Shown: piece by piece, positions 26,797-52,584 of the stretch
Layout of the letters: the number at the start of each line of letters is the position of its first letter
Position numbering within the stretch: the first letter of the stretch is position 1
From: Lachnospiraceae bacterium
GTDB taxonomy: Bacteria; Bacillota; Clostridia; Lachnospirales; Lachnospiraceae
Direction: 5' to 3'
Assembly: GCA_017460885.1 (NCBI GenBank)
Contig: JAFUAB010000023.1
Location: 1 to 53,160 of the forward strand
DNA: 53,160 nt
Position numbers and translations under genes: made by a program
Notes under the pieces: model-generated
Seen by the model: the letters and a program-made list of their open reading frames with translations, nothing else
Told to the model about the DNA's origin: nothing
Databases searched by the model: none

Positions 26797-26825
26797 ATAT
26801 TATCCTTAATAGGATTGGTTGTCAA
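26797..26825 (-). promoter_or_regulatory. Sigma-A promoter of rny
   Basis: On the minus strand, consensus -35 TTGACA (26825-26820), a 17-bp spacer and -10 TAATAT (26802-26797). It lies between the STAS gene stop and the rny start. Confidence 0.85.
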
Positions 26826-26852: not shown

Positions 26853-27155
26853 TCACAGATCCTCGGACAAACCTGTCATCTCCAGAACATCACGGACCAT
26901 TTCATTGGCTTTGATCAGTCTGGTCCTGCCGTTCTTGGATTCGGTTACCGCCATTATCTGCAGTATCTGCCTGAGTCCCGCGGATGAAATATATTCGAGA
27001 TCCTCCGCGTCGATCACGACATCGGTAAAACGCTTATAATCCTTCTTTACCTCTTCCATGATCCTCTCGGCATTTACCGCAGTTACACGCCCTGAAAGCT
27101 TAAGTTCCAGGGTTTTGTTCTGAATGTTTTTGTGAATTTTCAGATTATAATCCAT
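26853..27155 (-). CDS. STAS-domain anti-sigma factor antagonist (RsbV/SpoIIAA-like)
   Basis: A 100-aa single STAS domain. LELKLSGRVTAVNAERI and VVIDAEDLEYISSAGLRQIL match the family; the Ser in YISSAG is the usual phosphorylation site. In partner switching the unphosphorylated form binds an anti-sigma kinase. ATG 27155 (AAAGGGA 8 bases upstream) overlaps the end of the phosphatase gene by 11 bp, so the two are translationally coupled. No anti-sigma kinase or sigma factor gene is adjacent, so its target may be non-sigma or encoded elsewhere. Confidence 0.9.
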   Translation of the reverse strand: MDYNLKIHKNIQNKTLELKLSGRVTAVNAERIMEEVKKDYKRFTDVVIDAEDLEYISSAGLRQILQIMAVTESKNGRTRLIKANEMVRDVLEMTGLSEDL

Positions 27156-28605
27156 TGTCAGGTCCCTTTCCGGAATTTCCATTATATTTCAGACAGAGCA
27201 TGGTAAGATCATCAAACTGCTCCTCACTCCCTGCAAAGCTGTCTACCGCAGATCGTACTGCCCTGAGTATTTCTTGCGGCGTATCATTCGAGACGCCCTT
27301 TATGGCATCAAGCATCCTTTCCCTGCCGAACAGTTCGCCGCCTGAATCCATCGCTTCCACTATCCCGTCGGTATATACGAAGAGCATCTCTCCCGGCTTA
27401 AGCGTATACTCCTGATCGGTATAAGTCTTGCCCGCCCTTACTCCGAGAATAAATCCGTGCCTGTCCTTTACAAGCTCCGGTGTCTCTCTCCGGTGGATAA
27501 ACACAGGATATTCATGACCGGCATTTGCAGCCGTTAAACATCCCGTGGATAATGTCAGAACACCGAACCATACCGTTACGAACATCCCCTCCGAATTATT
27601 GGCACATATGGCGGCGTTTGCATCTTCCAGCACCTTGGACGGAGTCTTGCCCATCATTGCATTATTGACAATGATATTCTTAGTATACATCATAAACATC
27701 GCCGCCGGAATCCCTTTGCCGGAGACATCGGCTATAAGAAGACCCAGCCGGTCATCATCTATCAGGAAAAAATCATAGAAATCACCGCCAACCTCTCTGC
27801 AGGGGGTCATTTCCGCATACACATCGAACTCATCCCGATCCGGAAAAGTGGGGAACTGTGTCGGAAGCATATCTGTCTGTATCTGAGCCGCAAGGATAAG
27901 CTCCGTATCGATCCTTGCCCTGTGCTGCGTCAGTTCCCTCTGCCTGTATATCAGCTTTCTGCCATGACCCGCCATGGTGATACATGCCGTGAACACAATG
28001 AGTCCCTGCATGGTTTCCACCAGATATCCGTAGAAAAGAGTATTGCGCATATAGTGCATCTTATCATACGGCATGTTCTGCGCTTCAAGCACATCTATTA
28101 TCCAGGTTTCTTCCCCAAGCTCTATGACGGTTCCGGGGGCCAGCTCCAAAACATTCAGATTAGGTTCCCCGTACAGTGCTCCCCACATGGTAGATAAGAA
28201 GAATACTCCCAGAGACACCAGCGCTATGACCGCCGTATACCGCCTTGAGAAATACCGTACAGACAGTACGGTCGGTATCACCATCAATATCACTACGTTA
28301 TATGTGAAAACAGCGTCTGCCACTGCACATGCGAGGATCATGGCTCCCATAAGGAGGAATTTGACCCATTTCCGGGAATAGTCATAATGCCGGCAGACCA
28401 GTATACTTATGACCAGAACACTGATGACAAGAATGTAAGTCACAGGTGATCTGCCCCAGAAATAAACATAAAATACCCCGAGTTCGGAAAGTGGCCATAT
28501 AATAGCGAACAGTGCCGCCGTGATCGCGCCGGTTACAACCAGAATCCTGTTTGCCTCTATTTCGTTTGTCCAGAGAATATCTTCTGTTCTGTTCTGATCA
28601 TCCAT
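27145..28605 (-). CDS. Membrane PP2C-type (SpoIIE/RsbU-like) serine phosphatase
   Basis: A 486-aa protein. The N-terminal half has six hydrophobic helices between about residues 20 and 240 with an extracellular loop after WGALYGEPNLN. A short coiled region leads to the PPM domain: PCREVGGDFYDFF, IADVSGKGIPAAMFM, AANAGHEYPVF, FVYTDGIVEAMD and QFDDLTMLCLKY carry the metal-binding aspartates. It probably dephosphorylates the coupled STAS protein in response to a signal at the membrane. It starts 16 bp after the subtilisin-like gene, which links signalling to the peptidase locus. Confidence 0.92.
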   Translation of the reverse strand: MDDQNRTEDILWTNEIEANRILVVTGAITAALFAIIWPLSELGVFYVYFWGRSPVTYILVISVLVISILVCRHYDYSRKWVKFLLMGAMILACAVADAVFTYNVVILMVIPTVLSVRYFSRRYTAVIALVSLGVFFLSTMWGALYGEPNLNVLELAPGTVIELGEETWIIDVLEAQNMPYDKMHYMRNTLFYGYLVETMQGLIVFTACITMAGHGRKLIYRQRELTQHRARIDTELILAAQIQTDMLPTQFPTFPDRDEFDVYAEMTPCREVGGDFYDFFLIDDDRLGLLIADVSGKGIPAAMFMMYTKNIIVNNAMMGKTPSKVLEDANAAICANNSEGMFVTVWFGVLTLSTGCLTAANAGHEYPVFIHRRETPELVKDRHGFILGVRAGKTYTDQEYTLKPGEMLFVYTDGIVEAMDSGGELFGRERMLDAIKGVSNDTPQEILRAVRSAVDSFAGSEEQFDDLTMLCLKYNGNSGKGPDNGL

Positions 28606-28621
28606 ACCAAGTACTATGCGT

Positions 28622-31600
28622 TTACTTCGAAATCCTGATCACTCCCTGATAATACTTACATGAAGGCTTGATACGTATATAACCGTCCTCAGCGGTATAA
28701 TCCTTTTTGGAAACCGTAAGCAGCTTTTTCTTACCGTTTGAAGCAGTATATGCGTATTTAAGAGCTGACACCTTACCCGATTTGTTAAGTGTAACGACCG
28801 TATTATCATCACCTAATATCCTTTTGGTGATGTTGAATTCAAAAGTATTATTCGCAAGCGCCTTCTTAATATCACTGCCGGCCTTTTTGACCGTGAAGGG
28901 ATCACGCACAGCTTCCCATGCAAGAGTCTTTATCTTAAAGGACCCTGTTCCGGGAGCTTTGTTGGCCTTATATGCCACGGTCCCCGGCAGATAAACTTTA
29001 GTTCCGTCACTGCTTCTGATGGTAAGCGCAAGGTCATCAGCGGTTATTTTGCTGCCGGTGTAAGGAACTCGGCTTTTATAGCTTACCACATAGTCCCCGA
29101 TATTTACCATAGTCATTTCCGCTTTCTCATACCCGTCAAGATATCCGAAACGTATATGTTTGTTCCCAAGAGATGTATTACCAAGCACATAATATCTTCC
29201 GTCCAGGATCGTGCTTTGCTGATTTACGGTTCTGGCAGCTGAGAAAAGCCTTCCCGTCTCTGTGAATGTAACCCCTGATTCACTTATGTTCATCTTCCAT
29301 GTATCGGTATCGATGACTCCGAAGGAATTCTCCCTGGGCAGCCCCGTGAGTATGACACCTCCATCATAAGTTGAAACGGCTGCATGAATAATGTCCGTCA
29401 ATTCGTTTTCGTTTATCCCTTCCGGTAACGCTTTTGGGGAAATGACTGTGTCCGTGTAAGATCCGTCGTCATTTTTCACCAGTTTAACAAGATCCGACAT
29501 AATCATCATCTTCGTCACATCAGAAGACTTACCGTAGAGCAGATAAACATTCCCATTATATGTGAATACTTTGCCTCCGCCTTTGCCCGCACTCAACTCG
29601 CCAGCCTCTGAAAGCTTTCCGGCATCTTCATCAAAACGATAGATCTTCTTTACTGCTCCTTCTTCAATGAGAAAATTCATGATTCCTCCAATAAGCAGCA
29701 GTTCACCATCCGCATCTGCGATCATGATCTCTCTTAAAGGAAGCAACTCAATACTCGGTATTTCCTCATACATAGTGATCGGAGTTGAACTTGTATTAAG
29801 ACTCTCAGGGTCGAACATATTAAGAGAATAATCGTACTCAGTTAATTCACCATTTATGGTCTGACCGCGGGTCACAAATACCAGTTTGCCATCCCGTGAC
29901 AGGGTATTGCTCACGATCACCGGCGGTGTTTCCTTAACATGCTCAGGCTCAAAGTAGTCATCCGCCACATTTGACATTATCTTGTTCATAACATCCGTAT
30001 CGGGATCATATTCATATATCAGATATCCCCTGTCATTACCTTCATCATCGACAGTAGTAGTTACATATATTCTGCCGTTTAATGATGCGATATCAACGAT
30101 CTTCTCACCTGCAATCTGATCGAGTCCTTCCGGTGTAAGGTATGTATAATCACCGGTATTTTCACTTCCCGCCTCAACGCCGATCGCAAATCTGCGATGT
30201 CCGTCGCGCATCGATGTATCCCCGGTAACTTTATGCACCTCTACAAGCTTAACTCCGGTCTGAAAACCCGCAGGCAGCCTGGCGGTTATCTCGTTATCGG
30301 TCCAGGATGCAACGGTCAGTTTAGTGCCGTCTAACGTAACAGTACCCTTTTTCGTACCAAAGTAGTATCCGCCTATTTTTATCAGATCATTGTCCTTTGC
30401 TGCCGAGAAAAGCACGGGCATGGTCTTCTCATCGTCAAGTGCGTATGTTAAGTTGGCGATGCCTCCGGATACGCATTTATCCGCCAGCTTGTCACTTCTT
30501 TTTACACTTCCTTTGATACGGGCTGCCAGCTTGTCTGATGCCTCGTCGGGAAATGCTGCCGCCAGCACAGCCGCCTCGCCTGCCACAACAGGACAGGCCA
30601 TAGATGTGCCGCTGTCATAGGAATACAGAATGCCATCATCCGGCTCGATAAACTTAAGATCATCCAGGTACAACTCAAAGTTTCCGTTTTTATCGGACTC
30701 ATTTACCAGTTCCAGAGTGATCGTGGTCTGCTCCCAGTTCGCAGCCGCCATATTATGACTGCAAACGCTCCATCCATCAGTATTGCCCAAAGGGATCAGA
30801 TTAAAGGGAGTATCTTCTGTCATGAAAGCCCTGATCTGATAATCATCGCTCTCCCCTCCCTTGCGAACGCTTACAGACAGGTATTTAGTGTTGCCGGTTG
30901 CAGCAGGAGCCGTCGACGGGATCACTTTGGGAAAACTGATCCTCACGGGAGTATCTGCCTTGAAGCTGCCGGTTATTATAAGTCCGTTACCCTCCCTTCC
31001 GTCCGGTGTTACCTGAGCCTCGCAGCCTGTAACAGTATAATCGCCGAAATCATTATGGGTATCAAAATCATTTATTGCAAAGCCTTTTGAATACCTGGCG
31101 TCGATAGTACCGGTTAAGAATGTTGACATGATGTCGTCACCGGGCGCTGCCACATCTGTCTGATCATAGCCGTAATTGGAAAAAGATGTCAGTTCTCCCT
31201 TTATATCCGATGCATTGACAATGATCACATTCGGAAGATCCCTTAACATTACATATCCAAGCGATTTAACGTCTGCATCACGGGTCTCATTGCCGGAAGC
31301 AAAGCAAATAACTACGTCGTTTCTTGCCACATTTCTGATAGCAACGCCTTCGGCATAGCTTGAATAAGCATTCCCCCAGGAATTGTTAATGACCTTAACA
31401 TTTACTCCTGCTTCTATGGCAGCTTCAATGTAGTTATATGAGAGAATGATAGCCGAGGTAGGAAGACATCCCCTTGCATCTGCCGCACGGACAGCCATGA
31501 TCTTAGCACCGTTTGCAATGCCGCTTACACCCATGCCGTTCCATTCGCCCGCTATGATCCCGGCCACATGTGTGCCGTGATGATGCTCATCCATAGGATC

Positions 31601-32533
31601 ATCAACAGGGTAATTTGTGTCAAATCCCGCAGCCTGTAATGCATTGAAACCGCATTTACCGCCGCCCATGGCAGTAAGTGCAGGATAGTTTAAGCCCTCA
31701 TTCCACATTACATTCTTAAGATCCGCGTGATCGTGTTTAACACCCGAATCCACCACCGCCACAACGATCTCCTCTCCCGACTCGGGAACAGCATTTTTAT
31801 TGGCCAGATCATTCCAGCCCGGCACATCTATCCCGTATTCGCCGGTGGCCATATACTGATCGGCACTCAGATCGGGATCAGAGTTATCAGTCTGCTCATC
31901 AGCAAGGAGCGGCAGGGGCTGATCGGGAATGCTCAGTGCTTCATCAGCTTCTGCACTATCAGCCTCATATATCGCACTTTCTTCCGTAAGAGGCTCGTAT
32001 ATTTCATCAGTTTCAAGATGATGGATCAGATTGGGTTCCGCGGATATCACATTATCAGCTGCTTTAAGTTTACCTATCAGTTCATCCGTATCAAGCTGAT
32101 CGGATTTGACAAGACAGATGGTCTCTGATACGTTCCCGTCTGTCGATCCATCGCCTGCCCCGTAAAGCGGCGCAGGAGCTCCCTCAGCATAAGCCGTCAC
32201 AGCGGTCAGATCATCAATCGGAGCCTGAATGCTCATAAGCTCCGTGATCTCAAAGTCTCCGGGGATACTACCCAGCGCTTCGATAGCTGATCCTTCGCCT
32301 GATCCTTTACCGTTGCCTGACAGATCGCCACCGGCCGTCTTGTCCCTGACCACAACGATGGCCTCTCCGGGTACGTATTCGGCTTCGGCCGCGGTCACCG
32401 TATCCGATTCGTTATTCGCTGCGGTATATGCATCCATCGGGACACACGCAACAGCAAGTACCAGTGCCATTGTAAACGGCACGATCTTCTTCAAACCGAT
32501 TCTTTTGATATCCATTTTTATCATCCTTACCAT
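28622..32533 (-). CDS. Secreted S8 subtilisin-like peptidase with inserted jelly-roll-like domain, TIG domain and beta-propeller-like tail
   Basis: A 1303-aa protein; the start may be one of three nearby Met codons. A signal peptide (KKIVPFTMALVLAVACVP) is followed by a propeptide-like region. The triad is complete: Asp in VAVVDSGVKHDHADL (about 260), His in HGTHVAGIIAG (about 318) and Ser in DSGTSMACPVVAG (about 641). An insert of about 160 residues just before the Ser resembles a carbohydrate-binding jelly-roll (YLSVSVRKG ... ELYLDDLKFIE). A TIG/IPT-like domain (IKIGGYYFGTKKGTVTLDG) and kelch-like repeats follow. No cell-wall anchor motif is seen. It lies 55 bp after the ABC genes. Confidence 0.92.
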   Translation of the reverse strand: MVRMIKMDIKRIGLKKIVPFTMALVLAVACVPMDAYTAANNESDTVTAAEAEYVPGEAIVVVRDKTAGGDLSGNGKGSGEGSAIEALGSIPGDFEITELMSIQAPIDDLTAVTAYAEGAPAPLYGAGDGSTDGNVSETICLVKSDQLDTDELIGKLKAADNVISAEPNLIHHLETDEIYEPLTEESAIYEADSAEADEALSIPDQPLPLLADEQTDNSDPDLSADQYMATGEYGIDVPGWNDLANKNAVPESGEEIVVAVVDSGVKHDHADLKNVMWNEGLNYPALTAMGGGKCGFNALQAAGFDTNYPVDDPMDEHHHGTHVAGIIAGEWNGMGVSGIANGAKIMAVRAADARGCLPTSAIILSYNYIEAAIEAGVNVKVINNSWGNAYSSYAEGVAIRNVARNDVVICFASGNETRDADVKSLGYVMLRDLPNVIIVNASDIKGELTSFSNYGYDQTDVAAPGDDIMSTFLTGTIDARYSKGFAINDFDTHNDFGDYTVTGCEAQVTPDGREGNGLIITGSFKADTPVRISFPKVIPSTAPAATGNTKYLSVSVRKGGESDDYQIRAFMTEDTPFNLIPLGNTDGWSVCSHNMAAANWEQTTITLELVNESDKNGNFELYLDDLKFIEPDDGILYSYDSGTSMACPVVAGEAAVLAAAFPDEASDKLAARIKGSVKRSDKLADKCVSGGIANLTYALDDEKTMPVLFSAAKDNDLIKIGGYYFGTKKGTVTLDGTKLTVASWTDNEITARLPAGFQTGVKLVEVHKVTGDTSMRDGHRRFAIGVEAGSENTGDYTYLTPEGLDQIAGEKIVDIASLNGRIYVTTTVDDEGNDRGYLIYEYDPDTDVMNKIMSNVADDYFEPEHVKETPPVIVSNTLSRDGKLVFVTRGQTINGELTEYDYSLNMFDPESLNTSSTPITMYEEIPSIELLPLREIMIADADGELLLIGGIMNFLIEEGAVKKIYRFDEDAGKLSEAGELSAGKGGGKVFTYNGNVYLLYGKSSDVTKMMIMSDLVKLVKNDDGSYTDTVISPKALPEGINENELTDIIHAAVSTYDGGVILTGLPRENSFGVIDTDTWKMNISESGVTFTETGRLFSAARTVNQQSTILDGRYYVLGNTSLGNKHIRFGYLDGYEKAEMTMVNIGDYVVSYKSRVPYTGSKITADDLALTIRSSDGTKVYLPGTVAYKANKAPGTGSFKIKTLAWEAVRDPFTVKKAGSDIKKALANNTFEFNITKRILGDDNTVVTLNKSGKVSALKYAYTASNGKKKLLTVSKKDYTAEDGYIRIKPSCKYYQGVIRISK

Positions 32534-32588
32534 CCTTTCATTTCCTTCATGATCTATCTAAAGAAACGCTGATTACGTCGGCATTTCC

Positions 32589-33335
32589 CTAAAAATCCAA
32601 TTCTTTCTTTCTGAAAAACAGATACGAGATCAGGACAGACACTGCGCTGATCCTGACAAGCTCCCAGAGGATCGTAAATACCGCTGCCCTATTCCCCAGC
32701 ATTATGCTCGATGCGGCGCAGTCAACAGCGCCGGAGAATACCTTATTCTCAAAATGCATGAACTTAATGACGGGCAGCTTCGTAAGAGGTTCCGCCAGCA
32801 TATTTGACAGCGCCGTCAGTACAACATCCGTGATCGTTGCAAATGCCACATTTTTGGTTAAGTACAGCACGATCATCGAAACAGTCGCAAAACCGATGGT
32901 CTTAACAATACCCACCAGGATCCTTACAGACAGAAACAGTATCTCTTCACCGCTAAGATGCGCTCCCAGTATAAATCCCATAAGCAGCATACCTGCCAGA
33001 TATAATGCAAATGAGATCACTGTGATCACGACGCAGTCGATATATTTCGCGATCAGCAGCTTAAATCGTGACACGCCCCGGCCGATAAGTGCCTGCATCG
33101 AATTGGATGTGAATTCATCCGCGTAGACGCTTATGTAGATCATTATCCCCAGCATAAGCTCCGCTGCGAGCTTCATCATATTGTACTGATTCGATGTATA
33201 TGCTATGTCATTCCAGACACCCAGCCTTGTGCGCACCGTAACAGACATCTCCATAAGAAAAGCCACGACCAGCATAATGCGATAGGAGGGTTTTTTCAGA
33301 ATACGTATAACATCTGCTATTATCAGATCTTTCAA
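32589..33335 (-). CDS. ABC-2 type transporter permease
   Basis: A 248-aa protein with six hydrophobic helices. The start is TTG 33335 with AGGAG 8 bases upstream; it overlaps the TGA of the preceding permease in TTGA. The end FFRKKELDF mirrors the RRKEFEF end of its neighbour, so the two are paralogs that probably form a heterodimer. The conserved TSNSMQALIGRGVSRFKLLIAKY matches the coupling-helix region of LanE/LanG-like permeases. With the upstream ATPase it forms an exporter; the cargo is unknown. Confidence 0.88.
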   Translation of the reverse strand: MKDLIIADVIRILKKPSYRIMLVVAFLMEMSVTVRTRLGVWNDIAYTSNQYNMMKLAAELMLGIMIYISVYADEFTSNSMQALIGRGVSRFKLLIAKYIDCVVITVISFALYLAGMLLMGFILGAHLSGEEILFLSVRILVGIVKTIGFATVSMIVLYLTKNVAFATITDVVLTALSNMLAEPLTKLPVIKFMHFENKVFSGAVDCAASSIMLGNRAAVFTILWELVRISAVSVLISYLFFRKKELDF

Positions 33336-34066
33336 AACTCGAACTCCTTTCTGCGTAAAGATATGACCGTAACGATCACGGCAGCGGCAACATAGATAAC
33401 TGCCGGTATGATCTGCCATCCGAAGCGTCCGATCTCTACCAGCTTATAAGATAAGTCCAGCAGCCCGTCAAAGGTATAATCATATATGGTAAACTCCGTG
33501 AACAGGCTCATCACCGTGAATGTCACCTTAAAAATGGCAGTAAACGCCACACAGGCCACGATCCCTGCGGCTGATGAGTCCGTAAGGAACATTATCATCG
33601 CAGAGAACACTATATAACCATAGTAACGGAGCATCGTAAAAAGTATATATATGACGATGCATCTCCTCTGGAAATCACTCAGCGCGATGCTTCCGTCGTC
33701 AAGCGACTTAATAAGCCCCCCAATGAAAATGAAATAACAGGCAAGAAGTATTGCTCCGTCCAGAAACTTGGACGCAATAAGCTTGTCTCTCGTCAGTCCG
33801 TGGCCGAGTATGCACTGCATTGATTTGGAGGACAGTTCATTGGAAAAAACCGCTACGAATATGGGGATCACCACAAACAGGGCTCCAAAAGGAGTATCGG
33901 ACAAAGCTTTGTGCAATCCGTCGATAAAGCCCTTTGCGCCGGCGTCTACGCCCATGGCGCCGGTTACTATCTGATCAATGGTGCGATACAGGACAAGGAT
34001 CAGACCCACATACAATATCTTGCTCTTCAGCGCGCGTATAAGATCCGCTTTGATCAGGTTTCTCAA
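33332..34066 (-). CDS. ABC-2 type transporter permease
   Basis: A 244-aa, six-helix permease. TTG 34066 has GGAGG 9 bases upstream and overlaps the ATPase stop as TTGA. The coupling segment SSKSMQCILGHGLTRDKLIASK closely resembles that of the second permease. A hydrophilic loop near residue 40-60 is probably outside. It works with the ATPase at 34063-34905 and the paralogous permease. Confidence 0.88.
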   Translation of the reverse strand: MRNLIKADLIRALKSKILYVGLILVLYRTIDQIVTGAMGVDAGAKGFIDGLHKALSDTPFGALFVVIPIFVAVFSNELSSKSMQCILGHGLTRDKLIASKFLDGAILLACYFIFIGGLIKSLDDGSIALSDFQRRCIVIYILFTMLRYYGYIVFSAMIMFLTDSSAAGIVACVAFTAIFKVTFTVMSLFTEFTIYDYTFDGLLDLSYKLVEIGRFGWQIIPAVIYVAAAVIVTVISLRRKEFEF

Positions 34067-34905
34067 TCCTTCGCACCTCCGATCAGTTCAAAATAGTAGT
34101 CCTCAAGGGTCACCTTCTCCTTGCCTTCCTTCACTACCCTGATGCCATTATCCGCAAGTACCTGTCTTGCCCTGTCCAGATCACCGACTGCCACGGATAA
34201 CTCCACCTCGGGACGCTTAGCGCTTAAGTCCTCCTGGGAGATCTCCTTCGCTATCACGCCCTCATTTACTATACCGAACCGGTCTGCGGTATTCTCCAGC
34301 TCTCCGAGGATGTGGCTTGACACTATCACCGTCATCCCGTATTCGTCACGGAATCTCTGTATCATATGACGCACATCCGCGATACCCTGGGGATCCAGTC
34401 CGTTGGTGGGCTCATCCAGTATCAGGATCTCGGGAGTTCCCAGTATGGCATTGGCTATCCCCAGTCTCTGCTTCATCCCGAGAGAATACCCTTTCACGGG
34501 TTTCTTCCCCGCATCCTTTAATCCTACCAGTTCAAGTACACGGCTTACCTCTGTCTTCAATTCTTTGCCGGGTATCCCTTTGGCTCTGGCATAGTATTCC
34601 AGATTTGCTCTTCCCGACAGGTAATTGTAGAAATTCGAACCTACAAAGAATCCGATTCGGCGTCTGCCTTCAAAAAGTTCCTTTCTGCTTACGGAGCCGG
34701 ATATGGATACCGTACCGGAGGTATACTCAGAAAGTCCCAGGATCATCTTGAATATCGTCGTCTTGCCTGCACCGTTCTTGCCTACAAGTCCGTATATATC
34801 CCCCTTGTTGACCTGCATTGATACACCTTTAAGGACCTGCGCTTTGCCGTAGCTTTTATGGATATCGTCAAGCTTTATCACTGCCGTTTTCTCTGCATTA
34901 CTCAT
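34063..34905 (-). CDS. ABC transporter ATP-binding protein (BcrA/LanF-like)
   Basis: A 280-aa ATPase. Walker A GLVGKNGAGKTT, a signature SLGMKQRLGIANAIL (LSGGQ variant typical of the BcrA/LanF group), Walker B EILILDEPTNGLDP and the H-loop VIVSSHILGELE are intact. The last 70 residues form a C-terminal domain common in this group. ATG 34905 is preferred: GGAGG lies 5-6 bases upstream, and the longer frame would overlap the M13 gene. Members of this group export peptides or give immunity to antimicrobial peptides. Here it lies between an M13 peptidase and a subtilisin. Confidence 0.92.
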   Translation of the reverse strand: MSNAEKTAVIKLDDIHKSYGKAQVLKGVSMQVNKGDIYGLVGKNGAGKTTIFKMILGLSEYTSGTVSISGSVSRKELFEGRRRIGFFVGSNFYNYLSGRANLEYYARAKGIPGKELKTEVSRVLELVGLKDAGKKPVKGYSLGMKQRLGIANAILGTPEILILDEPTNGLDPQGIADVRHMIQRFRDEYGMTVIVSSHILGELENTADRFGIVNEGVIAKEISQEDLSAKRPEVELSVAVGDLDRARQVLADNGIRVVKEGKEKVTLEDYYFELIGGAKD

Positions 34906-34921
34906 TTTGTCCTCCATAATC

Positions 34922-37003: not shown

Positions 37004-37045
37004 GTATATCTCCTTATGTCATGGGATCTCTCATCCCGATATTTC

Positions 37046-40669: not shown

Positions 40670-40687
40670 CTGATCATGATCCGTAAG

Positions 40688-43600
40688 TTATTTTATCCTC
40701 TCAAGATCCACGCCTGCCTCGATAAGAAGCGTCTTGATGGTCTCCTTGTCCGCCTTCTTAGCCGAGATCTTAAAGGTCGCTCCTGTGCTGATATCCTCAA
40801 AGGCGTCGGCACCGACAGTTTTTAAGTTAGTCGGCGAAGCAGACTGTATGGTGACGGTGTCAAGTGATATGCATCCCGCAAAGGCTCTGCCGTCTATGGC
40901 GTCTGTTGTCTTCGGAAGCTTAATGCTCTTAAGGCCGGTGCAGCCCGTAAAGGCGCCGAAAAAGATGGTTTTGACTCCCTTCATCGTAACGGATGAAAGC
41001 TGTACGCATCCCGCAAAAGCGTCGGGACATATCTCGGTAACATTTTTGCCAAGCGTGGCTTTCTTAAGATTCTTATTATACGCAAATGCTCCGTCCTGTA
41101 CTGAAATGACCTTGAGCTTTGCACCGCGAAAGGTTACGGTGTCAGGCACATTAAGCTTCTCTATACTCTTGTCGGTAGATCCCGTAAGCAGTACCCCTGT
41201 AAGATCCGGATCAAGGATCTCATATGTAAGCCCTGTCCTGCTTACGAAGGAGGTGGACTGTCTAAGCAGCTGCCCGCTTAGTTTCCGCGCGGCCTCTTCT
41301 CCCTTGAAGGAATATTTAAATACCGTCACGTCAGGCACACCCTTAAAGGCGTCTTCTCCGACTGTAAGTGAAGGTGATGCAATAGTTACCTTGTTAAGCT
41401 TGGCGCATCCGCTGTAGGCTTCCGCACCGAGAGTCTTAACTGCTGCAGGGATCGCGGCGCTCTTTAATGCCGTATCGCCTGCAAAGGCTCTGTCGCCTAT
41501 GGAAGTTACTGTCTTAGGTATCGTGACCTTAGTCAGCATCACATTATTCTCAAAGGCTCCGTCAGCTATGGCTGTGACTGTATATTTATATCCTTTGAAG
41601 GTCACCTTCGCAGGTATCGATAAGGATTTTAGTTTTGCTTTTGCGGGATCGGTAAGACCTGTCACCGACAGAGTCTTATCTGCTTTGGAGCTGATGCTGT
41701 ACGTGATGCCTTTTTTGTCTGTCACCTGATCAGATGCATTCATAAGGGTGTCTGTCAGTTCATTCCGGGCAGCAGCATCCTTGATCGCAATATTATAATC
41801 CGCACTTTGAGGTACGCCGAGGAATACGTCTGTGCCTAAGTTATTACCCGTCAGTTTATCTGACTTAACAGTAATCTTCAAAAGACCTGTGCAGCCGGCA
41901 AATGCCTTGTCCCCGATATATGCAACCGATGCCGGGATGATGAGATTCTTTAATCCTGCGCATCCGTAAAATGCCTCTGCTTCTATGCGTTCAAGCTTAG
42001 CAGGTAAAGTGACGGCTGATATCCCGGCGCATCCCTTAAATGCGCTTTCTCCTATCTGTTTAAGCGCGCTGCCAAATGTAACCCCCTTTAAGTTCTCACA
42101 TCCCTCGAAGGCGCTGCTGCCTATCTGCGTCACATTCCTGCCGATGCTTAACTTTTCTATGCTTAAGCTCTTATTGAAGGCGTAAGCATCAATACGGGTA
42201 ACATTATATTTCTTGCCATCGATGGTAACTGTGGCAGGTATGGTCAGCGTCTTAACATTCGCACCATCTTCAGGACCACATACAGCAGCATCGGTCTCAT
42301 TGATGATGCGGTACTGTATTCCACCAACTGCATATGAACCGGTGGTGTCTGTTCTCTCACCCTCCTTAAGGATATTCACATCAATCACAAATGTCCTTAT
42401 GGCAGCGGTCGGAAGCTTATGGAAAGAGTCTTCCCCATACGAATCCTCATCATCCATGGACTGGAATTCTTCGCCATCGATCACTACGGTGCTGTCTCCG
42501 GTATTGTTATCTGCCACATATTCAGAATTGTCCGGATAAACATATACCTTGATCCTGCCGGTTCCCTCACTGAGTGTATGAAGCATTCCGTCAGTGTTTA
42601 TCTCGGCATTATCTCCGATGTACTCGTAATGGTATGACAGACCCTCAGTTCCGGTGGAGAGTTCTACAAGCTCATTATTCTGATCAAATGTTGCCTGCGC
42701 ACCCTTTCTGGGAGAATCGGTAAGGATCCTGGCCTGGATATCCACGGTCTCACCGGCTTCTAAGGTGATCTGACCCTTGCCGCTGCTTACGAGCACTCCC
42801 GTAAGATTGCCGTCATCATCCTCTGCCGCCTTCACTGCGTCAACCTGTACTCCGGTCACGAAACCTATATCTTCAAGTGCACTTTCTGATATGGAGCGGG
42901 TGATGAATTTATTCGATGAAGCAGAGCCGGTATCATACACCGCATCTCGCACAGCATCCTTTACAGGGATTCTGAGCCTGCCCATCCCGCCGGAATAAAC
43001 TGCGTAGAGCTGCAGTTCTTCGGCGACAAATTCCGTGCTTTGCACCTGATCATCTGATGCGTCGTCATCAACATCAGGATCATCAGATGCACCGTTATCC
43101 GCGGCCAGATCATCGGTTACAGTAAAATCATCATCCGATACCTCGATAAGCACGCACCTTGCGCCATCATCCTGCGCATCGTTCTCATTTTCTTCATCGA
43201 ATTCATAGCTCTCACCCGGCATCAGCGCAGGGTACTCTATCTGCTTAAGTGTCTTATCGGCGGACCCTCTCTGCACTACAAGGCTTATCACTCCGGCATC
43301 TGCAAGGGCTGTGCCCTCATTTATTACCCTGCCTGCCACCTGATAGAGATTACGCACACCTGTATCGCTGATGCTTATATCCTGCAGAGTGATATCAGGG
43401 GCAAGCTCCCGTGTAATGGTCGCATCATCAACTATGTTGCCCTCTGCATCCGAAAGTGTGATCGTAACCCCGGCATTCACTGCGTCCTCTGCAAGCGGAA
43501 CAGACCCGGTTACGACGTAAGTGTCGCCGCCTCCTAAGCCGTTTATGGTGATCTTCTCTGCTGCGGTCGTCTCTCCCTCGCCGTCTTCAGTCTCAGCGGG

Positions 43601-46600
43601 TACATAGCTGTACAAGGTACAATTATTACCATCCTTATCCGTAGCAGTGACCTCTGCTCCGCTTAAGTCATTGAAGCTGAAGTTATGGATCTCCAGTGAA
43701 AACGATGCATTCTCACCTGCCAGAGCGCCTGTGAATCCGGCATTTCTGATCCTTGCCGCCCCGTTTCCATCTGTCTTAAATGTTACCGGGTATGCTCCGG
43801 TATAATCCCAGATCGCATAGGGCACAAATGTTGCCTCATCGAAGCTGTCCGCGAATATCTCTCGCGCCTCTGATACCGTGATCATGCGCGAAGGGATCTT
43901 ACTTGCCATACCATATATCTCACCATCATATACTCCGAATGCCACGTCATCATAACGCTCGCCATAGTGACTGGTGATCTGCACAGGGCTTGTCTGGTAA
44001 GACATCACGCCATCTGAGATTTCCGTCTTTACTCCCCACATCTGGATATCCTTTAATCCGTCCTCCAGGTTCTCCGGCTTATCGTCTGCCGCCTGAGGCC
44101 AGATAACATAGATATATCTTCCATCAGTTTCAGCGTCGAAGGCACTGATTGCTCCTGTCTGCCAAGAATCCGCATCTTTCGAGATGGTACCTGATACAAG
44201 AGTAACCGGTGCTTCATACGCTGCGGTCATACCATCTGTATACGGAGTCTTATCTGCATACCGGTATGAGCTTCCCTGAACTTCTCCGGTTTTTATAAGA
44301 GCTTTTTCATTCTGAAGCAGATTTCCCACATTCATCGATACGATATTGCCGTCCTTAAGCCACATCAGATAAAGGTCATCTGCAACGCTTACAAATCTCG
44401 GACTGCTGTTCCCCTGACGCTCATTGCCTTCCGCATCCGTATTCAAGCTATATCCTGTCAGTATGACAGGCTTTGCAAAGGTTTCTGCAGTAAAATCATA
44501 GGTGGACAGGTACAGCTCTCTGTCACCTGCACTGCTTAAGTCGCCATCAGTATCGACGGTATAGGCAAGCACACCCGTAATCTCACCACCGGCTGTAAAT
44601 GTCGCCATATCGCTGTCAAGCAGTTGTCCTGCTCCGGGATTATCAAGCTTCACGGCTTTAGTTCCGGCTCCGCCTTCGCGGTAATATCCTGCCTCGTCCA
44701 GATCCTCCTGCAGTACGACCTCGGGCAGATATCCTTCATAGTATTTCTGTACGTATGTATTTCCGTCATCCGGTTCATTTTCAAATCCGTCGTTAGCCAG
44801 GTCATAGGTTCTGTACGCGATCTGAGTGCTTTCGGGATAGAACATATCCCGCACCATTGCTTCTGTACCGGAAGACTTATAGGCTCTCTTCTCATAGGCA
44901 ATTACGAGCCTGTCGCCGCTTTGGCTTACACCGATGGCTCTGTCTGCGGCGAGGTCGGTTTTTTCTGCGCCTGCATCTGCGTCATCTATTATCGCTGTAC
45001 TCGTAATCTCCAGAACATTTTCATCAAGCGAACCATCTGTATTTACGAATCTTCCATGTAAGTCAAGGGCATTCTGTCTTGCTATCCTGTCAGTTGTGTC
45101 CTTATATTCCTCATTCACTGATGACCACATGATCAGGGCTCTGTTACCATTTATTGAATAGATATGCGGGTACAGATCCAAAGTGCCGTCGTCCTCCAAC
45201 AGTTCGGGCTTACTCCACTCGCTTCCATTGAAATAAGTATAATAAGCTGCTTTGGCGTTCTCCTCATTCTTTACTCTGTTTTGGGGAACATTAAGGAACA
45301 CTGCTGCGAACTTACCGTCACCGAGAGATACCATATCGTAGCCTGCATCCGGCGCGATTCTGTTAGAGAGCATACCTTCGATGTAAGATTCAGACCCTCC
45401 GTCATCGATAGCGCCAAGTGCCTGCAATTCACCGTCCGCTGCAGCCGTCTCACTATCATCCAATTCGCCGTACCAGGTATCTTCACCCTCCATGTAGCTT
45501 AAGTCCTCTGCCTTAAGAGTGTCGACACTCTGTGACAGATAACTGTCCTCTGATCCTATACCCAGGGAACTAAGATCTTCCTCCCCTGTCTGATAGACAC
45601 CGTTTAAGATCGGTATCGTGTCTGAGTAATTCATAATACGGAGCTTCACGGAACCGTTCTGTGCGCAGGTTCCGGTACTGTCAGCAGATGCACCGTACGC
45701 AAGATCGTACTGCGCTTTGCCATCCACATCAGCCTGCACCAGATCACCCGCAAGGTTCGAAAAGCCCGTCAGAGTGATCTCAGGATTAAGGTTAAGTCTC
45801 CCGTAGCTGTCAAACCTTCTGTTCTCTCCGCTTCCTGCCACACTTAGGATATCGAAGCTGTCCTTATTATCTTCCGTAATGTAATAGCGCCTCTCTTTCC
45901 TGTCTTCGTCCGTAAGATCCTGCCTTTCTTCAACCACAATGGTGGTCCTGCCGGTTGCCTTAAGTTGCCTGCCGATACCGGCTGATAGTCCCAGCCCGGT
46001 GTCAAGATTTTCCGATGCATCGGAGTCTGCATCCACGGAGGCTGTGCACAGCATGTCCTTGACATACCATTTGCCGCACTCTTCATCGTAGCCGAAGGTC
46101 ATAAGCATACTGTACCCAAGATCCATCGGCAGGTTATCATCAAATTCCGCCTGCTGTCTGTACTCGTTCTGTATAGCCTTTATCTTATCATCAAGTCTGC
46201 TCTGGGCCTTATCGGCAGCCTCACCGCCCTCATCCTGCGCTTTGGCGGCAGCACGCGCCAGATCCATCAGCATATCCTTCTCGCCGCCTGCGCTCAATAT
46301 CTTCCTGCCGAAGCCCACACAGATCACGCGGTCCTGGCCGTCCATATATGCAGCACTCAGGTTATCAGTAATATCATCAAATTCTCCGCTCCAGTCCATG
46401 GTGATGGTCTGTCCTGCAGCCGGGATCAGACTTACAGACGAAGAATCATCTGTCGCTCCCAGAGGCTGAACCGAAGATGCGCCTGTCAGAGGGTTGATAA
46501 TGCGGATCGAGCCGATCCCATCCGCAACCTTAAGTCCGGCATCTCTTGACAATAAAGCACGGTCTCCCACATAAAACGCCACTCTTGCTGTAGCTCCATT

Positions 46601-48946
46601 ACCGATGCCCTTTGCTTTAGGATTGAAATCAAAGGTAAAAAGACCGCTGTGACTGGCATCCTCAGTTCCTTCTATGGACACCTTATTGCCATTCGTATTG
46701 GTAAAGGTGATCATGCCCTTGGTAAGAACCTCGTTTCCTCTGTGGGCGCTCATCTGCAGTCTGTAGTTCCTGTCGCCCCCGGGAAGAGCATAGTAGCCAT
46801 CGGACGATCCTATCTTAGTATCGGAAGTATCTACTGTCATATACTCCTTGCCGCTGCCGTCCTTTTTATTCTGCTCTATCAGAAGCTTTACATCGGAAAT
46901 ATCCACATCAGCAGTGGCGTCTACAACAACATTTCCCAATTTATTAGGGTTCTGGGAGTAAACCACTCCGATTGTACCTACCTCGTTCTCTCCGGTGAAA
47001 GTCACGTTGTAGTCGTACAGATCGTAATACTTAAACTTTTCATTGCTTTCAAGCTCGTAGTACCCCCTCGCATCGGTTGTAACCTCCTGTCCGGCTTTGA
47101 AGCCGCTGGCAAACACCGTGATGCCGCCTAAACCCTTCTGCACCTTCTTCCCGGATATAAGCAGCTGATCATTAAGTAGCAGATACCCCTTGATCGGCAG
47201 AGACTTCACCTCCCTGGCCACATTGACATCCTTGACGAAGTTGTAATATACCCTGTTCTTCACCGGTAGTTGAGGGATAAACTTAAACTGATCCCCGAAG
47301 GTGTTCCGGAAAGCCTCATAACCCGGGATCCTGATATCATCCACGCCGTCGCCATTGGTATCCTGGGTTCCGTCCTTCCAGTAGGCGTGAAAGCCCGACT
47401 TCGATGTAGCACCGAAGATATACGGCTTAAAAAGGTGAACATTTTCGATGGTGAAGGTCTCTCCGGCTGCGACCACCGTACCTAAAATGGGATTTTTCTC
47501 TGCTCCGGGACCATTTATAAAGGTAAGCTTGCCGTCCGCCCCTTCATTTACCGACTGTGGACTGGGAGCCATGGTGATGGAGCCTGTGGCTGCATCGCCA
47601 TAGTAGATCATGACACGACATAAATTTTTACCCAGAATAACTTTTGTCATTCCGGAATTCCACATATCCCCTTTATAATTGATAGCCGCTTCCAATGTAG
47701 TGGGATCGTCCGAACTCTGGCTGTCGCTTTGCGTTCTCCATTCGGTCCATTTATCGGATCTGTTGGATTTATTGTAATAAGCTCCGGTGGGTGATTGCAG
47801 TATCAGATGGGAAATCCTGTAGTCTGAATTAGCTTTCGCACTAACCCGGATCGTGTCAAGCTTCGTGGCGTTCTGAGTGTAGTCACTCCGAAAACCGTCA
47901 TAGACACCCTTTACATTGGCCTTTCCGTCCACTGCAGCATAACCGTTGAAAAACTGCACAGCCTGATATTTCGGCTCATAGACGGGCACCAGCGTAAAGG
48001 TGCCATCAGAGGAAAGGTAATCCTTATACTTGCTCAGAAAATTCTGGTCAAAGGTAAAGCTGGCTGAGTTTGTGATAAAGCCGCTGAGTTCATTTGTCTT
48101 TCCGGGCTTTGCCAGCTTAAAACCACGGCAGATTACGGTATTGCCGTCGGCCTTCACGCCCTGTGAGTTGGTTCCGCCGCCCTCCCACACGGAGGCGCTG
48201 ACGGTCTGACCACAGACAAACTGCTTTTCCTCAACATGCTTGCCGTTTCCATCCGTGAAATACGGCTTGGGGTACTCTACAAGTTTTCCGGGTTCATATC
48301 TGTCCTCGCCGGTAAAAACTCGCTCCCTGTATTCCCCCATGTGATTATAATTATCGTCTACCTTAAAATTATAGCTTGCGTATCCGATTGAATAACTTTG
48401 CAGTTTATAGCTTTTTACATACTTAAAATTCCCCTCCAATCCAAGGCCAATGCTTGCCTTGCCGTAATTCCAGGTTTCACCGCTGCCTCGCCTGAAATAA
48501 TCAGTAAAAGTCATATAACTACCATCATCCAGGCGACGATGAATACAGGGTTTTATGTTTTTCCCTGTAGATGCATCAATCAGATACAGGTAAGTATCGC
48601 CCACGTAATATGCCCAATCGTCAGCTGAAAATGCTGTCACAACCTTTATATAGTCTGCAGTTCTGAGATCGATATCGTTCACAACCCTGGTAGGGTTATC
48701 GCTAACCGGAGTAACACTACCCCCACCGATAGAAGTAACTTCCAATGTACCATATGGCTTGCTGCCCAGTGCTTCTATCTCCTCATCAGGCATCCCGACA
48801 GCACCGGATGATTCCTTTTCAATCTGATCATTTTGAATGCTGTCCTCCGCTTCAGCGACCGCTGCAAAGGCGTTTACATCCATCGAAGACCACACCATCA
48901 TGGCTGCCATAAGTACACTGATTGCTCGTTTTAAATATTTCCTCAT
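40688..48946 (-). CDS. Giant BspA-type LRR surface protein
   Basis: A 2752-aa secreted protein. ATG 48946 has AGGGG 7 bases upstream; a GTG 8 codons earlier is less likely. A signal peptide (YLKRAISVLMAAMMVWSSM) precedes adhesin-like beta domains. A carboxypeptidase-regulatory-like domain lies at about 585-690 (GITVFASGFKAGQEVTTDAR). A beta-propeller or sialidase-like stretch covers about 1150-1650, a CARDB-like domain about 1850-1960, and a group 2 Ig-like domain follows. BspA/LRR_5 repeats (DAFAGCxxLxxVTM) fill about 2240-2740. No LPXTG, SLH or choline-binding anchor was seen. Its C-terminal 115 residues are paralogous to the truncated protein at 52800. Confidence 0.9.
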   Translation of the reverse strand: MRKYLKRAISVLMAAMMVWSSMDVNAFAAVAEAEDSIQNDQIEKESSGAVGMPDEEIEALGSKPYGTLEVTSIGGGSVTPVSDNPTRVVNDIDLRTADYIKVVTAFSADDWAYYVGDTYLYLIDASTGKNIKPCIHRRLDDGSYMTFTDYFRRGSGETWNYGKASIGLGLEGNFKYVKSYKLQSYSIGYASYNFKVDDNYNHMGEYRERVFTGEDRYEPGKLVEYPKPYFTDGNGKHVEEKQFVCGQTVSASVWEGGGTNSQGVKADGNTVICRGFKLAKPGKTNELSGFITNSASFTFDQNFLSKYKDYLSSDGTFTLVPVYEPKYQAVQFFNGYAAVDGKANVKGVYDGFRSDYTQNATKLDTIRVSAKANSDYRISHLILQSPTGAYYNKSNRSDKWTEWRTQSDSQSSDDPTTLEAAINYKGDMWNSGMTKVILGKNLCRVMIYYGDAATGSITMAPSPQSVNEGADGKLTFINGPGAEKNPILGTVVAAGETFTIENVHLFKPYIFGATSKSGFHAYWKDGTQDTNGDGVDDIRIPGYEAFRNTFGDQFKFIPQLPVKNRVYYNFVKDVNVAREVKSLPIKGYLLLNDQLLISGKKVQKGLGGITVFASGFKAGQEVTTDARGYYELESNEKFKYYDLYDYNVTFTGENEVGTIGVVYSQNPNKLGNVVVDATADVDISDVKLLIEQNKKDGSGKEYMTVDTSDTKIGSSDGYYALPGGDRNYRLQMSAHRGNEVLTKGMITFTNTNGNKVSIEGTEDASHSGLFTFDFNPKAKGIGNGATARVAFYVGDRALLSRDAGLKVADGIGSIRIINPLTGASSVQPLGATDDSSSVSLIPAAGQTITMDWSGEFDDITDNLSAAYMDGQDRVICVGFGRKILSAGGEKDMLMDLARAAAKAQDEGGEAADKAQSRLDDKIKAIQNEYRQQAEFDDNLPMDLGYSMLMTFGYDEECGKWYVKDMLCTASVDADSDASENLDTGLGLSAGIGRQLKATGRTTIVVEERQDLTDEDRKERRYYITEDNKDSFDILSVAGSGENRRFDSYGRLNLNPEITLTGFSNLAGDLVQADVDGKAQYDLAYGASADSTGTCAQNGSVKLRIMNYSDTIPILNGVYQTGEEDLSSLGIGSEDSYLSQSVDTLKAEDLSYMEGEDTWYGELDDSETAAADGELQALGAIDDGGSESYIEGMLSNRIAPDAGYDMVSLGDGKFAAVFLNVPQNRVKNEENAKAAYYTYFNGSEWSKPELLEDDGTLDLYPHIYSINGNRALIMWSSVNEEYKDTTDRIARQNALDLHGRFVNTDGSLDENVLEITSTAIIDDADAGAEKTDLAADRAIGVSQSGDRLVIAYEKRAYKSSGTEAMVRDMFYPESTQIAYRTYDLANDGFENEPDDGNTYVQKYYEGYLPEVVLQEDLDEAGYYREGGAGTKAVKLDNPGAGQLLDSDMATFTAGGEITGVLAYTVDTDGDLSSAGDRELYLSTYDFTAETFAKPVILTGYSLNTDAEGNERQGNSSPRFVSVADDLYLMWLKDGNIVSMNVGNLLQNEKALIKTGEVQGSSYRYADKTPYTDGMTAAYEAPVTLVSGTISKDADSWQTGAISAFDAETDGRYIYVIWPQAADDKPENLEDGLKDIQMWGVKTEISDGVMSYQTSPVQITSHYGERYDDVAFGVYDGEIYGMASKIPSRMITVSEAREIFADSFDEATFVPYAIWDYTGAYPVTFKTDGNGAARIRNAGFTGALAGENASFSLEIHNFSFNDLSGAEVTATDKDGNNCTLYSYVPAETEDGEGETTAAEKITINGLGGGDTYVVTGSVPLAEDAVNAGVTITLSDAEGNIVDDATITRELAPDITLQDISISDTGVRNLYQVAGRVINEGTALADAGVISLVVQRGSADKTLKQIEYPALMPGESYEFDEENENDAQDDGARCVLIEVSDDDFTVTDDLAADNGASDDPDVDDDASDDQVQSTEFVAEELQLYAVYSGGMGRLRIPVKDAVRDAVYDTGSASSNKFITRSISESALEDIGFVTGVQVDAVKAAEDDDGNLTGVLVSSGKGQITLEAGETVDIQARILTDSPRKGAQATFDQNNELVELSTGTEGLSYHYEYIGDNAEINTDGMLHTLSEGTGRIKVYVYPDNSEYVADNNTGDSTVVIDGEEFQSMDDEDSYGEDSFHKLPTAAIRTFVIDVNILKEGERTDTTGSYAVGGIQYRIINETDAAVCGPEDGANVKTLTIPATVTIDGKKYNVTRIDAYAFNKSLSIEKLSIGRNVTQIGSSAFEGCENLKGVTFGSALKQIGESAFKGCAGISAVTLPAKLERIEAEAFYGCAGLKNLIIPASVAYIGDKAFAGCTGLLKITVKSDKLTGNNLGTDVFLGVPQSADYNIAIKDAAARNELTDTLMNASDQVTDKKGITYSISSKADKTLSVTGLTDPAKAKLKSLSIPAKVTFKGYKYTVTAIADGAFENNVMLTKVTIPKTVTSIGDRAFAGDTALKSAAIPAAVKTLGAEAYSGCAKLNKVTIASPSLTVGEDAFKGVPDVTVFKYSFKGEEAARKLSGQLLRQSTSFVSRTGLTYEILDPDLTGVLLTGSTDKSIEKLNVPDTVTFRGAKLKVISVQDGAFAYNKNLKKATLGKNVTEICPDAFAGCVQLSSVTMKGVKTIFFGAFTGCTGLKSIKLPKTTDAIDGRAFAGCISLDTVTIQSASPTNLKTVGADAFEDISTGATFKISAKKADKETIKTLLIEAGVDLERIK

Positions 48947-50414: not shown

Positions 50415-50519
50415 AGCACTCACCTTCAAGACCTCAACGCATAAAGCGATTTTTAGTCTATATCCTGAAAAAATAATGACTTATAGACATAAAATGTTTA
50501 TTTCTTATCTATATCGTAT

Positions 50520-51681: not shown

Positions 51682-52584
51682 TTATTTAATCGCCTGCGGT
51701 ATTTTGCCTGCTTCCGGCGATGATTGACTTTTCCTTGACTTAACACCCATCGAAAGCGCCTTTTTCGGACAGGCCGCAATGCATTCCCGACAGCGGATGC
51801 ATTCGCTGCTGTTTGGATTTATATGCGGATCCACATTCATTTTGCAGGTCTTTGCGCAAAGTCCGCAGTTTATACAGCTATGCTCATCCACATGCATACG
51901 CACGAGGCTGACCTTCTGGAACAGTCCGTAGAAAGCGCCGAGCGGACAGATATATTTGCAGAACGGCCGGTATATGAACATGGAAGATAATATGCACAGG
52001 ATAAGGAGCAGGAACTTCCACTTAAAAAGCCACCCTAACATGCTCCTCATCTGGCTGTTTAACAGTACAAGCGTGATACCGCCCTCAAGCGTCCCAACCG
52101 GACATATGTATTTACAGAAGAACGGCTCTCCGGCTCCATACTCCGTGCGGTAGAAAAAAGGCAGTCCGAACACCATTACCACCAGGATCACATACTTTAA
52201 GTATCTTAATACATTGTCCAACTTCTGAGGCACCCTGATCTTGGGTACCGGGATCTTATATAAAAGCTCCTGCAGCAGTCCGAAGAGGCACAGCCATCCG
52301 CAGATAAACCGGCCGCATATAAGTCCGATAAGTGACAGATAGCCTATGACATAGAAAGCGAATTTCCTGTGCCGCCCGTCAAATACCGCCTGCATTGATC
52401 CGATAGGACAAGAACCCAAAGCCCCGGGGCAGGAATAACAGTTCATGCCAGGTACGCAGAGCTTTTTTAAATTGCCGCCGTATATTGCAGGTCCTCCCGG
52501 GAGAAATCCTTTTACATATGCGTTCGTAATGATCCCCCATCCTGCCTGAATACATTTTCTGATAATTCCTGTTTTCTTATCCAA
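51682..52584 (-). CDS. NapH-like 4Fe-4S polytopic membrane protein
   Basis: A 300-aa protein from TTG 52584, which overlaps the stop of the small CXXC gene by 8 bp. The N-terminus carries NCYSCPGALGSCPIGSMQ. Four to five membrane helices alternate with the two cysteine motifs FCKYICPVGTLEGG and FCKYICPLGAFYGL, the signature of NapH/NosR/YccM electron carriers. Two ferredoxin clusters end it: CINCGLCAKTCKMNVDP and CIRCRECIAACPKKAL. It probably passes electrons across the membrane to the redoxin lipoprotein. The start has GGAG 10 bases upstream. Confidence 0.92.
   Translation of the reverse strand: MDKKTGIIRKCIQAGWGIITNAYVKGFLPGGPAIYGGNLKKLCVPGMNCYSCPGALGSCPIGSMQAVFDGRHRKFAFYVIGYLSLIGLICGRFICGWLCLFGLLQELLYKIPVPKIRVPQKLDNVLRYLKYVILVVMVFGLPFFYRTEYGAGEPFFCKYICPVGTLEGGITLVLLNSQMRSMLGWLFKWKFLLLILCILSSMFIYRPFCKYICPLGAFYGLFQKVSLVRMHVDEHSCINCGLCAKTCKMNVDPHINPNSSECIRCRECIAACPKKALSMGVKSRKSQSSPEAGKIPQAIK

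Follow-up and report, generated by a model that had tools for sequence, protein, structure and literature searches.

An M13 peptidase-ABC transporter cassette of conserved gene order, possibly for peptide protection, within a species-specific gene island of a Lachnospiraceae bacterium

Among the described systems closest to the locus considered here, transporters of the CprABC/LanFEG type consist of one ATP-binding cassette (ABC) ATPase and two small permeases, each described as having six transmembrane helices, and are accompanied by a lipoprotein gene (LanI). In the nisin resistance system NSR-NsrFP of Streptococcus agalactiae, a membrane-bound protease and an ABC transporter form two layers of defence. 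More generally, two reviews report resistance operons that pair an ABC transporter with a lipoprotein or with a protease bound to the membrane (PMC5786555, PMC4828448). A related arrangement is present in a Lachnospiraceae bacterium (assembly GCA_017460885.1), on contig JAFUAB010000023.1, which was analysed over its entire length of 53,160 nucleotides and is referred to as the window. Here, four overlapping genes encode an M13 metallopeptidase, an ABC ATPase and two ABC-2 permeases (TM1 and TM2). By comparison of gene order across genomes, this M13-ABC-TM1-TM2 cassette is the sole unit with conserved order in the surrounding 22-kb block (26853-48946). Its genes are the following:

37003..34922, minus strand: M13 (PepO/neprilysin-like) metallopeptidase with the lipobox LAGC, first gene of the cassette (Pfam Peptidase_M13 N and C domains, motifs, linkage)
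34932..34063, minus strand: ABC ATPase of the cassette (ABC_tran; TIGR03740 is the best model, below its cut-off)
34066..33332, minus strand: ABC-2 permease TM1 (ABC2_membrane, below the Pfam cut-off)
33335..32589, minus strand: ABC-2 permease TM2 (ABC2_membrane, just over the Pfam cut-off; start corrected to TTG)

The gene composition corresponds to that of LanFEG and CprABC, with an ATPase, TM1 and TM2 of 289, 244 and 248 residues encoded by overlapping genes, and the best NCBIfam model for the ATPase is TIGR03740 (lantibiotic protection), with 210.9 bits. The start listed for TM2, 33419, probably lies too far upstream; judging by the TTGA shared with the end of TM1, it is at 33335, as in the same-genus genome G001. 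Simple hydropathy analysis predicts six helices in TM1, four in TM2 (calculated with the long start) and five to seven in the permeases of six relatives. The cassette differs from CprABC/LanFEG in that its lipoprotein is an M13 metallopeptidase and not a binding protein, and further in the score of the ATPase, in the permeases and at one ATPase residue, as detailed below. Likewise, NSR is described as a serine protease and NsrFP as a BceAB-type transporter with one large permease, whereas the cassette combines an M13 enzyme with two small permeases. The peptidase itself resembles PepO and neprilysin, with both M13 Pfam domains, the zinc motifs HExxH and ExxAD (ExxxD) and 9kn2 and 9fma as best matches in the Protein Data Bank (PDB). 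However, it scores 183.5 bits on the NCBIfam PepO model, whose cut-off is 1000, and it is set apart from PepO by its lipobox and by its tie in gene order to an ABC exporter.

M13 genes are rarer than the papain-type (C1A), subtilisin-type (S8) and SpoIIE genes of the block, with matches in 6 of 61 and 43 of 397 genomes (all such counts include the own genome of the window). In G001 the complete cassette recurs with identities to the window of about 53, 80, 48 and 47% for M13, ATPase, TM1 and TM2 and with the same overlaps between ABC and TM1 and between TM1 and TM2, and the 60 kb around it hold no other member of the block. The same four genes are present in G236 and in G082, where the last one is cut by the contig end, while M13 and ABC are followed by one permease before the contig ends in G270 and directly by the contig end in G262. 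Six cassette-type M13 sequences were then used for a scan of contigs, and the best 80 of 589 confirmed stretches were all checked for an ABC gene of at least 45% identity. Such a gene was found in 10 of the 80, one of them (L218) being the G262 contig again, and these represent 10 of the 11 best M13 matches (L216-L226).

In a tree of 49 M13 rows, an ATPase lies beside M13 in 15 distinct loci, and all 15 fall in one part of 23 rows. The tree excludes same-place duplicates (L009, L010, L014, L128 and L218) as well as M13 frames shorter than 550 residues or scoring less than 150 bits, and from the pool L239-L295 apart from L275. Both permeases are complete in ten linked loci (the window, L017, L187, L216, L217 and L220-L224, M13 being cut at its 5' end in L222); one permease is present in L192 and L225, and the contig end interrupts the cassette in L160, L188 and L226. 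The distance between M13 and ABC varies from -13 to 55 bp in the cassettes measured. Since the linked M13 proteins diverge from that of the window down to about 33% identity, the linkage of M13 and ABC is old.

Possible peptide-biosynthesis genes or two-component genes lie near three further cassettes. In L216, from the Lachnospiraceae metagenome-assembled genome RUI570, M13 is 50% identical to that of the window and the cassette starts 108 bp after a precursor-like gene. The upstream genes (L216:1069-9868) encode exporters resembling NHLM ABC1 (TIGR03796, 822.2 bits, cut-off 853.3) and NHLM ABC2 (TIGR03797, 635.4, cut-off 709.4), one of them with a C39 peptidase domain, as well as a radical SAM maturase (221.9 on TIGR04463, cut-off 525) and a PoyD-like protein (TIGR04517, 302.7, cut-off 325). 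The precursor matches an NHLP leader (40.7, cut-off 50.9) and, above its cut-off of 30, the core with a cysteine at every fifth position of NF038108 (38.5). Since all matches but that to NF038108 stay below their cut-offs, it is the combination of genes that suggests a cluster of the type producing ribosomally synthesized and post-translationally modified peptides (RiPPs). The L220 cassette is preceded by genes for a response regulator and a histidine kinase, whose best models, VanR and VanS, are matched far below cut-off, for an M18 peptidase and for another ABC ATPase that scores best on TIGR03740 (207.5 bits, below cut-off), and in L192 a histidine kinase and a response regulator directly precede the cassette. 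No two-component system and no named RiPP family was detected among the window proteins scanned.

By analogy with the resistance operons mentioned above (PMC5786555, PMC4828448), the cassette may be read as a two-layer protection against peptides. The M13 lipoprotein on the outer face would form the first layer and cut small, probably antimicrobial, peptides near the membrane; the ATPase and the two permeases would form an ABC-2 exporter that expels intact peptide from the membrane, comparable to LanI with LanFEG or NSR with NsrFP. We thus infer a peptide substrate, protection, and cooperation of peptidase and exporter. With an even measure of confidence and no more, we favour an immunity or resistance cassette in which the peptidase replaces LanI or NSR and which lies inside a species-specific island of surface proteins. 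We propose, more tentatively, that such cassettes of rumen and gut Clostridia form a distinct class of peptide-antibiotic immunity or resistance. A lipoprotein peptidase resembling neprilysin would act jointly with an ABC-2 exporter whose Q-loop carries an unusual Gly, and the two would protect RiPP producers, as in L216, as well as non-producing neighbours, perhaps including the organism of the window. Literature searches on M13/PepO peptidases with ABC transporters, lipoproteins, bacteriocin immunity and RiPP clusters yielded, among the entries listed, no account of such a cassette. If the proposal is correct, some RiPP-type clusters bring along a portable protection cassette whose parts annotation would list separately, as an endopeptidase of the M13/PepO kind and as an ABC transporter, and the cassette could mark new peptide clusters and predict tolerant members of a community.

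Several observations weigh against this proposal. The ATPase falls short of the TIGR03740 cut-off of 309.75 bits, and the permeases tested match no NCBIfam model. A glutamate in the Q-loop (E-loop) is a hallmark of LanF; in 15 of 15 linked ATPases, a glycine occupies the site at which the other ABC ATPase in L220 carries glutamate, the position being taken from our own reading of the alignment. The 23-row part of the M13 tree is weakly supported (81/50), five unlinked long-branch rows and L189 sit among the linked ones, and the tree needs three label changes if all unlinked rows are counted, versus one against the two permease-only rows. M13 proteins of 33-36% identity occur without an adjacent ATPase in L189, L190 (with a permease-like gene only), L191, L193 and L195, so that M13 identity alone does not predict linkage; an ATPase is also missing beside the eleventh of the best M13 matches (L219, again with a permease-like gene only) and beside the fragment L275 (43% identity over 234 residues). 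A RiPP-type cluster accompanies the cassette at a single locus, many contigs being too short to tell. In the own genome, the search for NHLM ABC1 gave 71 matches, including a peptidase fragment of 59 positions on contig C51, and the best reached 328.2 bits, without the peptidase part, compared with 822.2 in L216. Self-immunity of the organism of the window was accordingly set aside, as its genome holds no strong NHLM exporter, although other RiPP types were not searched. Finally, two of seven giant-protein loci outside the own genome, described below, carry peptidase and signalling genes in their vicinity, which speaks for a functional link wider than the one proposed here.

The block surrounding the cassette comprises nine genes, all on the minus strand and separated by at most 55 bp or overlapping. 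Apart from the cassette, they are:

48946..40688, minus strand: giant BspA-type leucine-rich repeat (LRR) protein, with a signal-like N-terminus by eye and C-terminal LRRs (LRR_5, E 5e-67)
40669..37046, minus strand: C1A, a Cwp84-like papain-family peptidase with a lectin-like domain and Big_2 (Pfam Peptidase_C1 and Lectin_like, motifs)
32533..28622, minus strand: subtilisin-like S8 peptidase with a TIG domain (Peptidase_S8; serine motif at residue 642, NNSWGN at 383)
28605..27145, minus strand: SpoIIE/RsbU-type PP2C phosphatase with N-terminal membrane segments (Pfam SpoIIE, motifs)
27182..26853, minus strand: RsbV-like STAS anti-sigma antagonist, right end of the island (Pfam STAS; TIGR00377 66.9 bits, cut-off 53.45)

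From the giant gene to STAS, the intergenic distances are 18, 42, -11, -4, -4, 55, 16 and -38 bp, and catalytic motifs were found in all three peptidases, C1A, M13 and S8. C1A resembles Cwp84 of Clostridioides difficile in its papain-like domain followed by a lectin-like domain (residues 105-512; 4ci7, 4d59) but differs in Big_2 and a long C-terminal part. Proteases of the Cwp84 type carry cell-wall-binding repeats; in C1A, Pfam gave no match to such a repeat at E 0.05. SpoIIE and STAS, whose genes overlap, both carry their motifs, including the Ser motif of STAS, and thereby resemble the RsbU/RsbV partner switch. In contrast to that switch, no RsbW-type kinase or sigma factor was detected by Pfam among 17 window proteins scanned, and the neighbours differ from those of the paralogs read.

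The initial annotation had described these genes, their order, their common direction and their short gaps or overlaps, all of which were confirmed, and had seen no obvious terminator. The latter holds as well, since promoter- and terminator-like sites are near the shuffled expectation: 26 versus 22.7 and 10 versus 9.9, respectively, in 26500-41000, and 17 versus 19.6 and 10 versus 9.0 in 41001-53160. The 22-kb limit of the locus, by contrast, did not stand. The gene run starts upstream of the giant gene, as an AAA ATPase gene ends 37 bp ahead of it, and the flanking genes point in the same direction as the block. These neighbours and the conserved flank are:

48984..50429, minus strand: AAA ATPase (ATPase_2/DUF234, Pfam)
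50594..51655, minus strand: TlpA/ResA-like redoxin with a lipoprotein-like N-terminus by eye
51682..52584, minus strand: 4Fe-4S membrane protein (Fer4_5, Pfam)
52800..53160, minus strand: C-terminal end of a second giant LRR protein (LRR'), which aligns with the C-terminus of the first and continues on contig C39
25206..26753, minus strand: rny (RNase Y), conserved flank (Pfam, same-genus comparison)
26797..26825, minus strand: promoter-like site of rny, outside the island

The window is one whole contig (C1), and its first 41 bases at the right end are identical to the last 41 bases of contig C39 of the own genome, within the LRR' gene. Both in the window and among 315 loci this 41-mer has a single occurrence, and the window finishes LRR' in frame to the expected C-terminus. 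On account of this overlap and the completed reading frame, the block and the genes on C39 are most likely parts of one island, co-directional throughout and about 53 kb long (27 kb and 26 kb), between recA-recX-GH5, located on C39, and rny. Behind GH5, C39 encodes in one direction a uridine phosphorylase (12 bp after GH5), a Calx-beta protein of 3602 residues, a TlpA-like protein, a STAS-APH protein, two ABC exporters, GrpB, a 216-residue protein without a Pfam match and the giant LRR protein that leaves the contig end. Since the TlpA copies of the window and C39 are 90% identical and the giants 71%, a TlpA-giant unit has probably been duplicated.

In all six same-genus genomes (G001-G006), rny is immediately preceded by the co-directional genes recA, recX and GH5, and tblastn at 1e-5 found no match to 12 block or upstream-window proteins in their rny-flanking stretches. 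To the left in the window, rny-AAT-xerD is common to the six, the G004 stretch ending within xerD, and DAHP is shared by the five whose stretch extends that far. The rny gene starts 99 bp past STAS and retains a promoter-like sequence common to the four relatives compared (G001, G002, G003 and G005), which sets the right border of the island. Thus the 22-kb block appears, with the same even confidence as the role of its cassette, to be the right half of a species-specific island that was inserted or has grown, composed of giants with TlpA-like proteins (duplicated), secreted peptidases, the SpoIIE/STAS pair and the M13-ABC-TM1-TM2 cassette. The secreted proteins are presumably located at the cell surface. 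The island suggests that, in one species, a surface-protein repertoire can grow amid conserved housekeeping genes, the six congeners retaining the short version. A mobile element was also considered and set aside; Pfam detected neither a transposase nor a phage integrase in the island proteins scanned, xerD is a housekeeping neighbour common to the congeners, and the longest word shared by both borders measures only 9 bp. Within window positions 26790-26850, a palindrome-like TGTAAAATGTTTTACA is located just ahead of the rny -35 element, with GTTTATGTAAAC-like words close by in relatives; it is perhaps an operator.

Compared across genomes, most of the 22-kb block is no unit of conserved order. 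Residues 60-2150 of the giant match in one of seven genomes of the genus, the own one, and in 13 of 397 of the family. The own genome holds five giant-family places (C1, C39, C51, C42 and C41) with frames of about 2700-3400 residues, none of which occurs in the six congeners. No neighbour matching the peptidases of the window or the proteins of C39 was found in the stretches read around the three giants outside the island (C51, C42 and C41), and a constant pairing of giant and peptidases was set aside. From the 12 other family genomes, seven giant loci were read, five of them without a peptidase matching those of the window. At the G262 locus (L185/L186, C105), two hybrid kinases and GGDEF proteins accompany an M13 whose lineage lacks the ABC linkage, and at the G269 locus (L204, C111) a LytTR regulator accompanies an S8 peptidase, in each case in the same direction. 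ABC exporters follow the giant homologs of L214 and L215, and the homolog in L208 is likewise near transporter genes; judging by their N-termini, L208 and L215 presumably hold NHLM-like parts.

C1A matches in 189 of 397 genomes, and S8 and SpoIIE each in 38 of 61. STAS is found near SpoIIE in three of six larger stretches around S8 or SpoIIE (L120-L125), in which no further block member was detected apart from LRR repeats near or in the S8 protein and distant ABC matches. A regular pairing of SpoIIE with peptidases was discarded, since six of the seven SpoIIE places elsewhere in the own genome (C23, three on C44, C51 and C55, with N-termini judged by eye; a fragment on C12 was left out) lack a peptidase cluster. 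A C1A-like peptidase precedes an M13 of another lineage by 38 bp in the same direction in G219 (L203:5792-10098); this was the one other case, two further C1A surroundings (C19 and G151) having been examined, and a conserved C1A-M13 pair was rejected.

An alternative explanation of the cassette is export and maturation, in which the exporter would secrete a self-made peptide, either a signal or a RiPP, and the M13 lipoprotein would trim the leader or degrade the peptide as a signal-off step, protection not being the purpose. The position of the L216 cassette after a RiPP-type precursor gene and the kinase and regulator genes ahead of the L192 cassette agree with this, as does the match of the ATPase to PmtC, the exporter of phenol-soluble modulins (145 bits, cut-off 375). 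However, L216 is already equipped with its own NHLM-like exporters and a C39 peptidase domain, the overlapping genes from M13 to TM2 leave no space for a precursor gene between them in the window, and NHLM ABC1 matches in the own genome do not exceed 328.2 bits, which makes this explanation unlikely. Peptide protection by the cassette must also be weighed against simple feeding on protein or peptides, where the three peptidases would digest extracellular protein and the ABC-2 transporter would have an unrelated envelope task. The affinity of M13 to PepO endopeptidases and the origin of 3 of the 11 best M13 loci from rumen or omasum, judged by title and with RUG codes taken to denote rumen sets, are in line with such a role, yet the long-standing association of a single M13 lineage with a single ABC lineage and the overlaps of 4 bp that join ABC and permease genes, both in the window and in G001, render it very doubtful.

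On the scale of the whole block, the initial annotation had proposed a single operon whose products would process peptides or surface proteins and, via SpoIIE/STAS, sense what results. Co-direction, short gaps and the lack of a clear terminator speak for it, as do the Cwp84-like nature of C1A, Cwp84 being termed a surface-layer-associated protein in the literature, the C1A-like gene ahead of M13 in G219, and the G262 and G269 loci. On the other hand, recA to AAT are co-directional anyway, the own-genome SpoIIE and giant paralogs read are without peptidases, no RsbW-type kinase was detected among the 17 window proteins scanned, and the peptidases and regulators of G262 and G269 belong to other types or lineages. 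Linked order in relatives, which had been expected for such a system, is kept by M13 and the transporter, but the six congeners have no block gene near rny. Relatives therefore do not retain a single surface-proteolysis system of fixed parts, although a looser theme of giant, peptidase and signalling genes recurs in G262 and G269. Peptide handling remains the likeliest task of M13 and the transporter, whereas nothing beyond adjacency points to sensing by SpoIIE/STAS. Processing and sensing by the block as a whole finds weak support in the G262 and G269 loci, and the one-operon explanation is distinctly improbable. A search of the literature on Lachnospiraceae with BspA, SpoIIE and peptidase returned nothing. 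It is extremely improbable that the island is in part an assembly artefact, with C39 and C1 not adjacent or the window contig chimeric. A contamination estimate of 6.64%, equal-scoring and mirrored matches on C20/C34 and C32/C38, suggestive of duplicated contigs, and the fact that such a contig break can mean a second neighbour of the 41-mer would allow for it; the exact 41-bp overlap with its completed frame, the same-genus flank rny-AAT-xerD-DAHP on the same contig and a guanine-plus-cytosine content of 0.42-0.51 in the island part, compared with 0.45-0.50 in 8-26 kb, argue for continuity.

Two further contigs bring together relatives of block members in other arrangements. In L230 (4721-12016), an S8 homolog (241 bits) is divergent from an M13 gene, and L238 (3-11916) carries SpoIIE, a STAS-type protein, a TlpA-like protein and an M13 split in two frames. 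Farther along the window, a transfer-messenger RNA gene is located at 6621-6983 and encodes the tag ANDDYALAAA.

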